Assembly (NCBI GenBank): GCA_030148165.1
Contig: JASBTZ010000003.1
Coordinates: 1,426,001-1,490,000 of the forward strand
Source: Bacteroidota bacterium
GTDB taxonomy: Bacteria > Bacteroidota > Bacteroidia > Flavobacteriales_D > Crocinitomicaceae
Direction of reading: 5' to 3'
Length of the DNA: 64,000 bases
Below, in pieces: positions 33,478-40,355 of this stretch (positions within the stretch are counted from its first letter, which is position 1; each line of letters opens with the position of its first letter). The position numbers and the translations under genes are program-made. The notes below the pieces were generated by a model. The model saw only the letters and a program-made list of their open reading frames with translations. It was not told the DNA's origin and ran no database searches.

Positions 33478-36144
33478 CTAGTTTATATTCGGCGATAACC
33501 ACTTCGCCATTTCATCTACATTTAAGTTCTTTCGATCAGCTAAGGATTTTACCTGATCCATATCGATTTTTCCGACGCCAAAATACTTGCTTGATGGATT
33601 CGCAAAATACCATCCTGATACACTTGCTGTAGGATACATGGCAAGACTTTCTGTTAGTGATACGCCTGTTCGCTTTTCGGCGTCAAGCAATTTAAACAAG
33701 GTAATCTTTTCGGTATGATCCGGACAAGCAGGATATCCAGGAGCAGGACGAATTCCTACATATTTCTCTTTAATCAGATCGTCGTTATTTAAGTGTTCCT
33801 TTTTTGAATAACCCCAAAACTCTTTTCTTACACGCTCGTGAAGGTATTCCGCAAAGGCTTCAGCCAAACGATCCGCCAATGCCTTCAATAATATCGAATG
33901 ATAATCATCATGCTCAGCTTCAAACTGCTTTATTTTCTTTTCTATCCCAATACCGGAGGTCACCACAAAGGCGCCGATATAATCCTGTATGCCCGTTGTT
34001 TTCGGTGCAATGAAATCCGCCAATGCGATATTAGGAACGGACGCTGCCTTCTTTCCCTGTTGACGAATAGTATGTTGAATACCAACAAGTCTATCGGGAT
34101 CCTCAGGGTCGTAAATCTCAATGTCATCTCCTATCGCAGATGCCGGGAACAAACCTACAACTCCTCTATGTTCAAGCCAATGTTCTGAGCCAATTTGCGC
34201 CAGCATTTTCTTAGCATCGGCGAACAACTTCGTCGCTTCTACTCCTACAACATTATCATTTAAAATGTCAGGATACTTTCCATGTAATTCCCATGTTCTG
34301 AAAAAGGGAGTCCAGTCGATATATGGAATCAAATCATCGGTAGACGGTGTAACTGTATGTATCCCCAGCTGCTCGGGACGAACGATCTCGTCTTCGTTAA
34401 AGTCTATCTTCAGTGAGTTAGCACATGCAGCCTCATACGATAAGAGCGGTTTCGCCTGACGATGTTTTTCGTGATGTTCCCTAAGCTTTTTATAATCATC
34501 CTTGAGGTTTGCAACAAAGTCCTGCTTTTTACTCCCTAATAATTGCTCCACAACCGTAACTGATCTGGAAGCATCAAGTACGTGAATGGTTTGATCCCTG
34601 GTGTAATGCTCTTCGATTTTTACCGCTGTATGAACTCTGGATGTAGTCGCTCCTCCTATTAATAATGGAATATTCAGGTTTGCTCGTTCCATCTCTTTCG
34701 CAACAGTCACCATTTCATCCAATGACGGAGTTATTAATCCACTGAGCCCGATCACGTCAACTTCTTGTTTGATAGCCTCATCAATGATCCTTTCATGTGG
34801 AACCATCACGCCCATATCAATTACTTCGTAATTATTGCAACCGAGTACAACTCCAACTATGTTTTTACCGATATCGTGAACATCACCCTTAACAGTTGCC
34901 AATAGAATTTTTCCTGCACTTGAGCTGACTCCATCCTTCTCCTCTTCGATGTATGGTAACAGGTAGGCAACGGCTTTCTTCATAACCCGCGCAGATTTAA
35001 CAACCTGCGGTAAAAACATTTTACCACTTCCAAAGAGGTCTCCAACCACGTTCATTCCATCCATCAATGGACCTTCAATAACTTCAATTGGTCGATCGTG
35101 TTGCAGTCTGCTTTCTTCCACATCTTCCTCGATATAATCAGTTATGCCTTTGACTAATGCATGCTTTAATCGTTCGTTGACATTATTTTCACGCCAACTA
35201 AGGTCAACCACGCGAACCTTCCCTTCACCTTTTACTGTTTCAGCATATTCCAATAAACGCTCGGTAGCATCGGACCTTCGATTTAAAAGAACATCTTCTA
35301 CATATTGAAGCAGTTCTTTATCCACATCATCGTATACTTCCAACATAGATGGATTCACAATTCCCATATCCATACCATGCTGAATGCCATGATATAAAAA
35401 TGCAGCATGCATTGCTTCGCGAACTACGTTATTACCTCGAAATGAGAAAGACACATTGGATACACCACCGCTAACATGTGCTCCCGGTAAATTCTCCTTG
35501 ATCCACTTAGTCGCACGGAAAAAATCGAGCGCATTATCATTGTGTTCTTCCATACCGGTCGCTACCGGAAAAATATTCGGATCGAAAATGATGTCCTCCT
35601 TGGCAAATCCAACGACATCAACTAAAATCCTATACGAACGTTCACATATTTCTATTCTTCGCTCATAACTGTCTGCCTGACCGTCCTCATCAAACGCCAT
35701 AACGATGACAGCTGCACCATAACGCTTAATCTTTTTTGCTTGCTCGATAAAGATATCCTCGCCTTCTTTAAGTGAAATGGAATTCACTACTCCCTTACCC
35801 TGCACACATTGAAGCCCTGCCTCGATGATCTCCCATTTTGAGCTATCAATCATTACGGGGACTCTGGAAATATCCGGTTCAGAAGCAATCAAATTCAAGA
35901 ACTTGACCATCGATTCCTTCCCGTCTATCATCCCTTCATCCATGTTGATATCGATGATTTGAGCCCCTCCTTCAACCTGATCTCGCGCAACACTCAAGGC
36001 TTCTTCAAAATCTCCTTCTTTAATAAGTCGAAGGAACTTTCTTGATCCAGTAACATTCGTTCGTTCACCAACATTGACAAAATTGCTTTCGCTTGTCACG
36101 ATCAATGGCTCAAGTCCCGATAATTTCAAGGTAACTATGCTCAT
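33478..36144 (-). CDS. metH: Methionine synthase, folate/B12/activation part (split MetH)
   Basis: 888 residues, equal to MetH without its first module. The pterin-binding domain (about 15-280) starts at [17 protein letters not shown]. The B12 domain has the DxHxxG motif with His423 ([12 protein letters not shown]) as lower cobalt ligand, and the cap domain precedes it. The C-terminal AdoMet-activation domain (about 600-888) ends with [15 protein letters not shown]. Together with the gene upstream it transfers the methyl group from methyltetrahydrofolate via cobalamin to homocysteine. Its ATG overlaps the stop of the upstream half by 4 bp, so equal production is likely. Under SAM-riboswitch control. 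Confidence 0.97.
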
Positions 36145-37139
36145 AACACTGCAATCTTTCTAGGTGAATATTCCTTAGTTAATTCTGTAATTGCCTTGAT
36201 ATGATCCGGTGTGGTACCGCAACATCCTCCGATGATATTGACAAGTCCTTCATCCAGAAAGGATTTGATCTGCTCTGCCATCATTTCCGGTGTCTCATCA
36301 TATTCGCCAAATTCATTTGGCAATCCGGCATTTGGATGGGCACTTACAGCAAAACTAGATTTCTTGTCTAACACCTGAAGATAAGGTCTCATCATCGAAG
36401 CGCCTAAAGCACAATTCAATCCTACTGAAAGCAGGTCCATATGTGAAACCGATATTAAAAATGCCTCTGTCGTCTGACCGGTCAGTGTTCGGCCACTTTG
36501 ATCCGTAATCGTCCCTGAAACCATCACCGGAATTTTGAGACCTCTTTCCTCCAGGATTTCATCAATTGCAAACAAAGCAGCTTTAGCATTGAGTGTGTCA
36601 AATACTGTCTCAACTAATAGTAAGTCCACACCTCCATCCAGCAAGCCATTAACCTGTTCCTTATAAGCATCCACTAATTCCTGAAAGGTAATCGCCCGAA
36701 ACCCCGGGTCATTTACATCCGGAGAAATGGAAGCTGTTCTGTTCGTAGGACCAATCGATCCTGCTACGAAACGCGGTTTTGATTGATCTTTGGAAGTGAA
36801 TTCATCTGCAACCTCTCTGGCTATTTTAGCACTGTGATAGTTAATGTCGTAGACGTATTTCTCAAGTCCGTAATCAGCCTGTGCTATAGATGTGCCGGAA
36901 AATGTATTGGTCTCAGCAATATCGGCCCCAGCTTCAAAATATGCAGCGTGTATTTCCCTTATTACATCTGGTCGGGTAAGCGACAATAGATCATTATTCC
37001 CCTGCAAAGGATGGTGATGCTCTTCAAACCAACCCTTTCTGAAATCTTCCTCTTCCAGCTTGTATCGCTGGATCATGGTGCCCATCGCTCCATCCAGGAC
37101 TAAGATTCTCTTTTCTAATTCTGATTTAATATCCTTCAT
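36141..37139 (-). CDS. metH: Methionine synthase, homocysteine-binding part (split MetH)
   Basis: 332 residues covering only the homocysteine S-methyltransferase module. Landmarks are [26 protein letters not shown], the first zinc Cys in [13 protein letters not shown] and the Cys pair in [14 protein letters not shown]. It lacks the cobalamin-binding part, which the next gene supplies, so the two polypeptides must assemble. The start ATG at 37139 lies about 40 nt after the riboswitch. A box TATATTTG ends 7 nt before it and could allow initiation independent of the riboswitch. Confidence 0.96.
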
Positions 37140-37178
37140 TCATCTGCAAATATAAAACCATGAAGTAAAGGATGAGTA

Positions 37179-37281
37179 ACTTATCTTTTCTGTATTAAAC
37201 AGATCGGAATTGGCACCTTTTTCAGTCTGAATAGGTTGCCAAGGTTTCACAGGGCCTTTCCCTCCACCTTTCTTCATAAGT
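37179..37281 (-). promoter_or_regulatory. SAM-I riboswitch (S-box) controlling split metH
   Basis: The minus strand carries the S-box core almost unchanged: AAAGGTGGAGGG, GGCCC, GTGAAACC, GGCAACC and AAAGGTGCCAATTCC, in order and with correct spacing. P1 is ACTTAT (37281-37276) with ATAAGT (37184-37179). P4 is the hairpin TCTGT-TTAAT-ACAGA (37203-37189). No T-rich terminator follows, so control is probably at translation start (see findings). The aptamer binds S-adenosylmethionine and should switch off methionine synthesis when it is plentiful. Confidence 0.95.
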
Positions 37282-37299
37282 CTATTTGAAAGAACACTA

Positions 37300-37329
37300 C
37301 AAAGTTAAGTGATTATTGTTTTAATCAAA
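37300..37329 (-). promoter_or_regulatory. Promoter of the riboswitch-metH transcript
   Basis: On the minus strand TTTG (37329-37326), an 18-nt spacer, TAACTTTG (37307-37300). Both elements match the Bacteroidota -33/-7 consensus exactly. The start point would lie near 37293, some 12 nt before the aptamer. Confidence 0.7.
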
Positions 37330-37367
37330 GGAATTCAACGGGTATTCCAAGTCCGTAATCAATTTAT

Positions 37368-37375
37368 TATATTTG
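37368..37375 (+). promoter_or_regulatory. -7 promoter box of the TPR-GAF-SpoIIE gene
   Basis: TATATTTG ends 19 nt before the ATG at 37395. The upstream half-site is not clear. Confidence 0.4.
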
Positions 37376-37394
37376 ATTGCGAACCTCAGCTACT

Positions 37395-40355
37395 ATGAAA
37401 GTCGTCAATGAAAATAACACTGATGTAATTGATCAGCAGAATCTGCAAAATTGGAAGGATGTCCGTAATGACCCCGCCGGCGTTCTTGAATCCGCTACGG
37501 AAATATTGAAGCAGGCTCAGGAAATTAATTATAGCAAAGGAGTTGCCTGGGCTGAAGGCAATGTTGGAGCGGCGAACATCTGGTTATCCAATTATGAACA
37601 GGCACTTGATCATTCCACAAGAGCACGGGATTTACTTCATGCAGCAGGTGAATTAGAACATGAGGTCGATATCATCTATAATCTTTGCGCAATATTTCAC
37701 TTCTTAAGCGACCACGAGAAACAATTAGAATATTCAAAAGATTCGCTTGAGTTGGCCAAACAGATCGGATATCTTTCTGGTCAGGCGAGTGCTTACAATG
37801 GAATCGGTATTGTTTATTACAGCACGGGGCAACACGAAGAAGCAATTGAAGCACTGGAACAGGGAAAAAAAATTGCTGAAAAGATTGGGGATAAGCATAT
37901 TCTTATGCGCATAGTTGATGGAATAGGGCAGGCAAATTTGAATCTAGGCAGGTATGACGAAGCCCTCAGACATAAAATGGAATGCCTGGAAATGGCCCGG
38001 GAATTAGGTGAAAAAGTAGTACAGGCCTTCGCTATGGATGGAATTGGCGAGATCTACTACAATAAACAAGACTACACGAACGCACGAAAGTATTGTCTTC
38101 AATCATTAGAACTTCGGCAAGAACTTGGTTTTAAATCAGGTGAAGCCGAGTCCACATTGCATTACGGTCAGATCGAACTTGCTTCAGGTAATGTTCAAGA
38201 AGCCAATAAACAATTACTTGAAGCTATTCGTATTGCTGATGAGATCAAAAATTATGAGATAGTTGCTAAAGCTCATAAGTCCTTATCAGATCATTTTGAG
38301 AAAACCGGTGAGGTCGAATCTTTTATAGACCATTTCAAAGCCTATCACGCAGCAAGAGATAAATTCAAGCAGGAATCAGAATCCAAAAAGTTGAAAACCT
38401 TTGAGTTGAAAGGAAGGCTTGAACAAATGGAAGAAGAGCGGGTTCAACTTCAAAAGAAAAATGAAGAACTAAAAAGTTATTTCGAAGATGTGGAGATCTT
38501 AAGCAAGATCGGTAATGAAATCACAACAAATCTTTCTGTCAATGCTATTAACTCGCTCGTTTATGAGAATGTCAACAAGCTTATGCCTACTGATGGATTT
38601 GGAATCGGGGTGTATGAAGCTGAAAGCAATGAGCTCATTTTCCCTGGCTATATTGAAAAAGGAAAGGTATACGAATCTGCCGTTTACGACTTAAACGATA
38701 ATGATCGGCTAGCGAGCGTTTGCTTTAATAAGGATCAAGAAATTCTCATCAACAACTTTGAAAAGGAACACGCCAAATATGTCCCTCAAATGATGACCCC
38801 AAAGATTGGAGAATCTGTCCAATCATTAATTTATTTGCCACTTAAAATCAAAGAAAAAAAGATCGGTGTAGTTACCATTCAATGCTTCACAAAAGATGCC
38901 TATTCTGAATATCACCTGAATATCATCCGAAACCTGGCAATTTATATTTCAATAGCCCTTGAAAATGCACGATTGTACGAAAACATGGAAGACCAGGTAG
39001 ATAAACGAACGAAAGAACTCGAGCAGAACCACAAGAACATGGAGCTCTTGAACAAGATCGGACAGGATCTGATATCCACGCTTGATTTTGAAAATGTGAT
39101 CGAACGACTCTACAAAAATGTCAACAAGCTCATGCCTGCAACGATCTTTGGGGTTCGCCTGCTAAATGAAGAGGATAATACAATTGAATACAAATATGAC
39201 TATGAAAATTTCAATCGGCATGAAGAAATTGTAGTATCCATGGAGGATGACAATAACTACTCCGTTTGGTGCATTAAAAATAATGCGGAAATCTTCATTA
39301 ATGACAATGAAAATGAATATTCACGATATGTTGAAGAGGTTAAAGTTGTAGCCGGAGAATATCCCCAATCCCTGATTTTTTACCCACTGCGTAGAAACGG
39401 GAAAGCCTTTGGTCTTATTACCGTTCAGTCACTCGAGAAAAACGTTTATACGAACTATCATCTGAACATTCTGAAAACACTTGCTCATTATTCTGCTATC
39501 GGTCTTGAAAATGCAAGGCATTACGAGATCATGGAAGCGGAAGTGAAAAAACGCACCAAAGAACTCTATGAAGCTAACGCGACCATCCGCAAGAAGAATC
39601 AAGATATTACCGACAGCATTAACTATGCAAAAAGAATTCAGTCAGCTTTAATGCCTGACGATACAGAAATTACCAGATCCTTTGATTCATTCTTTTACTT
39701 ATACAAACCAAAGGACATAGTAAGTGGAGACTTCTACTGGTTCCATGACTTCGGAAACATCGTTGTAGCTGCCGTAGGAGATTGCACCGGGCACGGTGTT
39801 CCCGGGGCATTGATGTCGGTTATTTGTGTGACCCAAATCAATAAACATGTGAAATCAGACTCGGTTCTGTCTCCAGCACGTGCCTTAAAGCTGATAAATG
39901 ACGGAATTGTAGAAACCTTGAAACAACATGCGGTCAATGTAAATTCTTATGATGGAATGGACATCGCCATGTGTGCATACAATAAAGAGAGTGGTATTCT
40001 CGATTACGCCGGAGCATATCGTCCTCTGATTGTGATCAATAATAAAAAGCTGACCGAATATGAGTCAAATCGATTCTCCTTAGGAGGCGACATCATTGAT
40101 CAGGAGAACTTTAAGCAACATCAAATCCAATTGCTTCCGAATGATCACGTCTATATGTTTACGGATGGTTATCCGGATCAATTTGGTGGACCAAATAATA
40201 AAAAGTATTTATCGAAACGCTTTAAAGAAATGTTGGTTGATATCAGTCATCATTCATTTGATAAGCAACGTGAAATTCTAGAAAAGAACTTTAATGAGTG
40301 GCGAAAAGATAACGAACAGGTCGATGACATCCTGGTCATGGGATTCAAGGTTTAA
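37395..40355 (+). CDS. TPR-GAF-GAF-SpoIIE phosphatase signalling protein
   Basis: 986 residues from the ATG at 37395 (a TTG 18 nt upstream falls right behind the promoter box). Order: tetratricopeptide repeats (about 30-300, units such as SAYNGIGIVYYSTGQHEEAIEALEQ); a coiled coil; GAF-like domain 1 (about 366-530); GAF-like domain 2 (about 549-711), related to the first (NVNKLMPxxxFGxxx in both); a coiled coil; and a SpoIIE-type PP2C phosphatase (about 740-986) with metal-binding Asp in IVSGDFYW, VGDCTGHGVPGALMS and DDILVMGF. By family it dephosphorylates an anti-anti-sigma factor in partner-switching signalling; no such partner is adjacent. No signal peptide, so cytoplasmic. Confidence 0.93.
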   Translation: MKVVNENNTDVIDQQNLQNWKDVRNDPAGVLESATEILKQAQEINYSKGVAWAEGNVGAANIWLSNYEQALDHSTRARDLLHAAGELEHEVDIIYNLCAIFHFLSDHEKQLEYSKDSLELAKQIGYLSGQASAYNGIGIVYYSTGQHEEAIEALEQGKKIAEKIGDKHILMRIVDGIGQANLNLGRYDEALRHKMECLEMARELGEKVVQAFAMDGIGEIYYNKQDYTNARKYCLQSLELRQELGFKSGEAESTLHYGQIELASGNVQEANKQLLEAIRIADEIKNYEIVAKAHKSLSDHFEKTGEVESFIDHFKAYHAARDKFKQESESKKLKTFELKGRLEQMEEERVQLQKKNEELKSYFEDVEILSKIGNEITTNLSVNAINSLVYENVNKLMPTDGFGIGVYEAESNELIFPGYIEKGKVYESAVYDLNDNDRLASVCFNKDQEILINNFEKEHAKYVPQMMTPKIGESVQSLIYLPLKIKEKKIGVVTIQCFTKDAYSEYHLNIIRNLAIYISIALENARLYENMEDQVDKRTKELEQNHKNMELLNKIGQDLISTLDFENVIERLYKNVNKLMPATIFGVRLLNEEDNTIEYKYDYENFNRHEEIVVSMEDDNNYSVWCIKNNAEIFINDNENEYSRYVEEVKVVAGEYPQSLIFYPLRRNGKAFGLITVQSLEKNVYTNYHLNILKTLAHYSAIGLENARHYEIMEAEVKKRTKELYEANATIRKKNQDITDSINYAKRIQSALMPDDTEITRSFDSFFYLYKPKDIVSGDFYWFHDFGNIVVAAVGDCTGHGVPGALMSVICVTQINKHVKSDSVLSPARALKLINDGIVETLKQHAVNVNSYDGMDIAMCAYNKESGILDYAGAYRPLIVINNKKLTEYESNRFSLGGDIIDQENFKQHQIQLLPNDHVYMFTDGYPDQFGGPNNKKYLSKRFKEMLVDISHHSFDKQREILEKNFNEWRKDNEQVDDILVMGFKV

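Follow-up and report, generated by a model that had tools for sequence, protein, structure and literature searches.

Translational control by a SAM-I riboswitch has been described for the met leader of Xanthomonas campestris, in which, according to the portion of that account drawn on here, an anti-AUG segment forms part of a sequestering hairpin that hides both the Shine-Dalgarno sequence and the AUG, and in which tRNA is sensed as well (PMC7270179). A ligand-controlled hairpin over the initiation region is likewise the hallmark of direct-occlusion (add-type) translational riboswitches, which, as far as the excerpted parts of PMC10907184 go, have other aptamers, possess a ribosome-binding site and hide it together with the AUG. 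Barrick and Breaker sorted riboswitch platforms into five categories, and the ribosome-binding site of SAM-I members can sit in the 3' side of P1, in the sections of their paper used here (PMC2258182). Within the phylum Bacteroidota, TPP riboswitches of Bacteroides, which respond to another ligand, reportedly work at the level of either transcription or translation (Costliow et al. 2019, a preprint, as cited in the available part of PMC7366714). Bacteroidetes mRNAs go without Shine-Dalgarno sequences and their initiation depends on A-3 and on the local structure of the start region, according to the excerpt of PMC6847099 that we used. A partial literature search, which covered published papers without preprints and extracts of PMC7366714, PMC12751083, PMC10907184, PMC13273304, PMC2864571 and PMC12121620, among others, yielded no worked-out SAM-I mechanism in Bacteroidota and little on how translational riboswitches act in a phylum without Shine-Dalgarno sequences in its mRNAs.

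The window, by which we mean the whole 64,000-nucleotide stretch of DNA analysed here, comes from a member of the Crocinitomicaceae (Flavobacteriales, Bacteroidota) and carries the following features around the start of metH:

37300..37329, minus strand: promoter-like TTTG-N18-TAACTTTG, a motif match only
37178..37282, minus strand: SAM-I (S-box) aptamer, RF00162, 87.7 bits, E 1.9e-19
37267..37277, minus strand: start-codon mimic AUGAAGAAAGG in the 5' side of the aptamer (end of P1, J1/2 and 5' strand of P2)
37160..37173, minus strand: switching strand AUCCUUUACUUCAU, 14 nt, able to pair with the aptamer or with the start
37131..37143, minus strand: AUGAAUGAAGGAU, an out-of-frame AUGA, the metH AUG (37139-37137) and codons 2-3; 3' arm of the predicted OFF hairpin
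36141..37139, minus strand: N-terminal part of metH, a separate ORF of 332 aa, homocysteine-binding half of methionine synthase
33478..36144, minus strand: remainder of metH, 888 aa, with a 4-nt overlap with the first ORF

The S-box aptamer that the initial annotation had recognized on the minus strand is clearly present: the match at 37282-37178 spans the full RF00162 model (model positions 1-108) with a score well above the gathering threshold of 44.4 bits, and in the RF00162 alignment P1 is formed by 37282-37276 and 37184-37178. The locus resembles other SAM-I members in aptamer sequence and structure, in its methionine synthase context, metH being a gene of methionine/SAM metabolism that lies directly downstream, and in its presumed OFF logic. 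It differs from them in the expression platform, which has neither a terminator nor Shine-Dalgarno sequestration, appears to target the AUG and the first codons, and uses the 5' side of the aptamer (P1/J1-2/P2) for its alternative helix. As had been claimed, no terminator follows the aptamer: a scan of 37050-37420 returned 0 terminator-like sites, so that the intrinsic terminator between aptamer and gene by which transcription-attenuating S-box leaders are known is missing, and a terminator was ruled out as the mechanism at this locus. Masking of a Shine-Dalgarno sequence was ruled out as well, in agreement with the initial annotation, since GGAGG, AGGAG, GGAG, GAGG and AGGA are all absent from the 20 nt before the AUG at 37139. 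The features of a start-codon-masking riboswitch, on the other hand, are found in the predicted folds and in co-variation within the genus, where the AUG hairpin excludes a helix that involves the aptamer. Sequestration of an AUG by a SAM-I riboswitch is not new as such, because the Xanthomonas switch hides its AUG; compared with what the consulted portion of PMC7270179 describes, the window leader has no Shine-Dalgarno sequence and employs one strand that can pair with either the aptamer or the AUG. We place the metH leader in SAM-I as a member with an apparently variant expression platform, and we infer its mechanism from sequence comparison and predicted folds.

The AUG at 37139, whose position is consistent with tblastn alignments of the metH of relatives, lies 38 nt from the 3' end of the aptamer (37178). 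The gene itself (37139-33478, minus strand) consists of two overlapping ORFs, the split falling where the homocysteine domain meets the remainder of the protein. The 332-aa ORF matches NCBIfam PRK09490 and TIGR02082 (profile positions 10-338 and 1-320) with scores below the whole-protein cut-offs of both, as expected for a part, and the 888-aa ORF scores 1519.2 bits against PRK09490 (cut-off 1497) over profile positions 343-1230. No sigma-70 type promoter match was seen for the metH leader. The upstream TTTG-N18-TAACTTTG corresponds to what we take to be the -33/-7 type promoter motif of Bacteroidota; this motif has 2 matches in the window with 3.09 expected by chance, and the candidate at 37329-37300 may be argued for by position and not by rarity, as only its place speaks for it. 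An internal promoter TATATTTG before metH was also considered and rejected, because among the 28 genus leaders TANNTTTG occurs in a single linker, that of the window.

Two helices can be formed by the linker, and they are mutually exclusive as both use the same nucleotides. The anti-aptamer helix joins CCUUUACUUCAU (37171-37160) to AUGAAGAAAGG (37277-37267) through 11 standard pairs with one bulged A, which reproduces the pairing of linker and aptamer 5' side given by the initial annotation. The start helix joins 37173-37160 to 37143-37131 through 13 pairs, with C37165 bulged and one G-U, and covers the whole AUG; the upstream out-of-frame AUGA (37143-37140) takes part in it alongside the true start. 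The earlier proposal for this second pairing, CUUCAU with AUGAAG (37139-37134), holds in that both segments are present, but its 6-pair register is not favoured over the 13-pair helix in another register. In the same way, the switching logic proposed with it, one shared strand and an OFF state when the aptamer is closed, agrees with the folding and with the co-variation in the genus, although the length of the helix, its register and the identity of the segments differ.

With the aptamer enforced, A37139, U37138 and G37137 are paired with predicted probabilities of 0.91, 0.95 and 0.99, as against 0.07, 0.25 and 0.32 with the anti-aptamer helix enforced, which is the contrast that the initial annotation had anticipated. 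Codons 2-3 (37135-37131) are still 0.58-0.91 paired in this ON fold, mainly with 37100-37096 of the modelled stretch. The unconstrained minimum of -41.9 kcal/mol contains P1 and the start hairpin, and a fold with the anti-aptamer helix enforced reaches -41.4 kcal/mol; enforcing all 30 Rfam consensus pairs gives -32.9 kcal/mol, a cost of 9 kcal/mol. When the aptamer and the switching strand are folded alone, the anti-aptamer helix forms (-31.9 kcal/mol, z -2.50, 4/200 shuffles as good), and the hairpin at 37178-37128 has -11.3 kcal/mol (z -2.51, equalled by 3/200 shuffles). Near-balance of the two window folds is plausible in these models but not firm, because the energy gap between the states varies with the construct (0.5 kcal/mol, vs 4.0 kcal/mol when the construct is shorter and its helix is derived from a duplex); the openness of the start is also construct-dependent, going from 0.04 to 0.64 in one model and from 0.32 to 0.67 in another.

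We consider it probable that this leader is a SAM-I riboswitch that shuts off metH translation at high SAM via sequestration of the start codon. Without SAM, the strand 37173-37160 would pair with AUGAAGAAAGG in the 5' side of the aptamer, thereby breaking P1/P2 and leaving the start codon of metH accessible. In the presence of SAM, closure of the aptamer would release the strand to pair with AUGAAUGAAGGAU, so that the AUG and the next codons would be buried in the 13-pair hairpin and the 30S subunit would be unable to start. This scheme presumes that SAM is bound, that the switch works in the OFF direction, and that control falls on translation as opposed to transcription or decay.

Neither pairing is more than mildly unusual for the window sequence taken by itself. 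Dinucleotide shuffling of the linker (29 nt as used for shuffling) gave aptamer pairing as strong in 119/5000, start pairing as strong in 374/5000 and both in 9/5000, and among 207 gene starts of the window's genome (a crude set, the first ATG of ORFs of at least 200 aa) five had a start duplex as strong and 11 a local hairpin as strong. These figures are suggestive, and one leader would not convince; it is the comparison among relatives that makes a convincing case for the pairings. Despite the weak single sequence, chance alone was rejected as their source by the genus permutations given below.

RF00162 is present in 100 of the 119 genomes of the relatives set (own genome included), in 30 of 34 genomes of the genus and in 216 of 240 of the family. 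From the fetched loci of the family, which included 60 of the 150 RF00162 places listed for it, 118 metH leaders were extracted, of which 112 were retained after duplicate removal, 28 of them from the window's genus; 23 low-scoring aptamer places of the 119-genome set, 25 fetched family loci without metH and one locus without a usable start (L091) were left out. Pairs per leader were counted by a script as the best helix and not from an alignment, because the linkers contain too many gaps for alignment; picking the best helix favours pairing, whereas the permutations do not. A metH riboswitch went undetected in 12 genomes, and 11 of these (several of the genomes are incomplete) are also without a metH match, so that joint loss of the switch and the gene seems likely; G053 is left as the one candidate for a negative control that has the gene and lacks the switch. 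The genus tree is poorly resolved, with 0 starred branches and long ends, and the window leader and L009 form a flagged long-branch pair.

The anti-aptamer pairing is widely retained among these relatives. Native linker-aptamer pairing exceeds the mean of the leader's own shuffled linkers in 28/28 genus leaders, so that the complementary aptamer segments expected in close relatives by the initial annotation are indeed there, and in 62/71 other leaders. This comparison covers 99 of 134 rows (28 from the genus and 71 others), the remaining rows belonging to other families or being duplicates, and the 71 include named relatives whose family membership was unchecked. Strand-aptamer pairing as good as native was obtained in 0/5000 permutations of the 28 genus leaders and in 0/5000 pooled within-genus permutations of 104 leaders (single-leader genera, 8/112 leaders, excluded). 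By single genus, this co-variation is clear only in g1, g2 and g22; in g18, g10 and g16 the aptamer end hardly varies, which leaves no room for such a signal. Across the family, the J1/2 variants UGAA, UAAA, UUAA, UACA and UUUA are matched by the linker. The leader's own variant is the best or tied in 90 of 110 leaders (79 alone, 11 tied; two of the 112 leaders, with variants occurring fewer than three times, were excluded), and 2000 label shuffles averaged 48.7 and never exceeded 63, though the UAAA group is weak, with its own variant best alone in 11/36. For example, ACUUAUAAAG occurs with CUUUAUAAGU-like linkers and, in g16, AACUUAUUAAGAAAG occurs with CUUUCUUAAU. The anti-start segment (UAUCCUUCA-like) and its anti-aptamer counterpart (CUUCAUAAGUC-like) adjoin each other in many relatives and are not identical.

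In six genera (12 leaders) the linker complements the P2b hairpin, as GGACCGG/CCGGUCC and GGAUCGG/CCGAUCC. These linkers (L010, L016, L061, L062, L087, L092, L094, L101, L104, L274, L276 and L277) carry the matching changes ACCGG/CCGGU and AUCGG/CCGAU in place of complementarity to the 5' end. A sub-group of the window's genus (L021, L054, L057, L063, L068 and L076) is distinguished by anti-aptamer helices of 9-15 contiguous pairs, a GUGA...UCAC linker hairpin and mostly weak start pairing, and another off-mechanism may act in it.

Pairing of the linker with the start also co-varies in the window's genus. A linker-start energy as good as native was found in 1/5000 permutations of the 28 genus leaders, and the result is again 1/5000 when the linker is set against codons 2-5 alone; the pooled within-genus permutation of the 104 leaders gave 2/5000. 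Compensatory pairs are seen in L081 (AUAUCCCUC/GAGGGAUAU), L051 (UGUUCCUCA/UGAGGGACA) and L025 (UGUCCUUCAU/AUGAAGGACA), and L009 has a wholly different one (CAUACUACU/AGUAGUAUG); the four sit on separate long branches of the weakly resolved tree. Co-variation of linker and start, which the initial annotation had suggested as a check in related leaders for the ATGAAG/CTTCAT pairs, is supported by the permutation and by these changes. Its expectation of start-complementary segments in close relatives fares less evenly: linker-start pairing exceeds the own shuffle mean in 24/28 genus leaders, but an ungapped start helix of at least 7 pairs is missing in 10/28, and in four of the 18 members that have one (L036, L038, L069 and L077) it lies downstream of the AUG.

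Outside the genus, g11, g18 and g14 (26 leaders) show complementarity between CAUAGUU in the linker and AACUAUG at the start. The trinucleotide [AG]CU precedes the AUG in 16/17 of their leaders with AUAGU and in 20/26 overall, as compared with 9 of the 207 crude starts in the window's genome, which belongs to another genus. The start pairing is conserved rather than variable in these three genera; in the case of L246, CUCGUAGUU pairs with AACUAUGAG. Taken singly, start co-variation is not significant in g18 (539 of 5000 permutations), g11 (300), g2 (1916), g22 (3933), g10 (1353) and g16 (4246).

Going to the anti-aptamer state raises the openness of the start by >0.1 in 75 of the 112 leaders and lowers it in 6, a comparison that the forced helix can bias. 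Blocking the anti-aptamer segment opens the start more, on average, than blocking other segments in g1, g18, g11 and g22, although its effect is larger than that of every control in only 3/8 leaders of g11, and it opens the start no more than other-segment blocking in g10, g16 and g12; the window leader, with a linker too short for a control segment, is excluded from this comparison. When the coding sequence is permuted and the linker and 5' context are kept, which is a weak control, the accessibility shift is as large in 10/30 permutations for g1, 2/40 for g18, 3/40 for g2, 1/40 for g22, 4/40 for g11 and 6/40 for g10. We regard a start-sequestering device as well supported in the window's lineage and as likely in g11/g18.

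A different account would make transcription the main target: SAM would expose a non-canonical terminator or a site for Rho loading within the leader, and the start hairpin would play a secondary part. Untranslated leaders can invite Rho, and in the other families of the order the same aptamer is followed by an intrinsic terminator in 13 of 33 metH leaders, so that the ancestral platform may be transcriptional. The proportion ranges from 2/2 (f2 and f5) to 0/8 (f9), as counted by a strict detector that misses imperfect stems and that covered only 90 nt in four of these leaders, which have no in-frame ATG. With the same detector the number falls to 1/112 in the family, the scanned stretch 37050-37420 contains no terminator-like site, and transcriptional control gives no role to the co-variation between the linker and codons 2-5 in the genus; we consider this account unlikely. 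The anti-aptamer pairing could alternatively be functional by itself, forming without ligand a fold that tunes the affinity for SAM or the order of folding, in which case the start complementarity would be a by-product of a U/C-rich linker meeting an A/G-rich start. Such a by-product would fit the better conservation of the anti-aptamer pairing relative to the anti-start pairing and the missing start effect in several genera. It is at odds with linker-start co-variation that includes coding positions in the window's genus, with the compensatory linker/start cases and with the excess of [AG]CU before the AUG in the AUAGU leaders of g11/g18/g14 over the crude starts, and we find it similarly improbable.

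We attach very little weight to coupling via a short frame that runs from the aptamer AUG (37277) to a UGA directly before the metH AUG. The window does contain this frame (37277-37140, minus strand, 45 codons), with its stop at -3 and the UGA abutting the metH AUG, but in relatives the stops are scattered (at -3 in two leaders and between -135 and +29 in the remainder), and the aptamer AUG is missing in leaders with AUAAAG, AUUAAG, AUUUAG or AUACAG. The frame was dismissed as not conserved in relatives.

Sequestration of the metH start codon at high SAM, the reading we prefer, is directly testable with few mutants, because the helices are specific and mutually exclusive and the compensatory changes reach into the coding sequence. 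On a broader scale, there may be a Crocinitomicaceae-wide SAM-I platform for ribosomes that do without Shine-Dalgarno sequences, and we would put the chances of this extension at about even. The 5' side of the aptamer would imitate the context of the start (AACUUAUGAAG vs AACUAUGAA in g11/g18, AUGAAGAAAGG vs AUGAAUGAAGGAU in the window), sensor and start would compete for one antisense strand, the device would replace the terminators of other families, and a second branch (g4, g5, g9, g12, g20 and g23) would have been rewired to the P2b hairpin. Neither GGAGG nor AGGAG occurs in the 20 nt that precede the start in any of the 112 family leaders. The metH leaders of the order would offer a natural series of platforms behind one aptamer and one gene, comprising terminators, start-codon sequestration and rewired anti-aptamer strands.

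The window's genome has a second SAM-I riboswitch (L002:1631-1747), located upstream of a metX-like gene, for which the best NCBIfam match is MetX, below cut-offs. Between this aptamer and the metX-like gene lies a short ORF ending in MCSCMCCCRC. A limited literature search found nothing similar to a Cys-rich leader ORF after SAM-I. In the family, a short ORF with at least three Cys follows the aptamer in 18 of 25 non-metH SAM-I loci (a count without a chance control), and in 12 of the 25 the Cys-rich ORF starts 7-10 nt after the aptamer, with runs such as CCCCCCCC and CCCMCCCCC; it may encode a cysteine-sensing leader peptide under SAM control.
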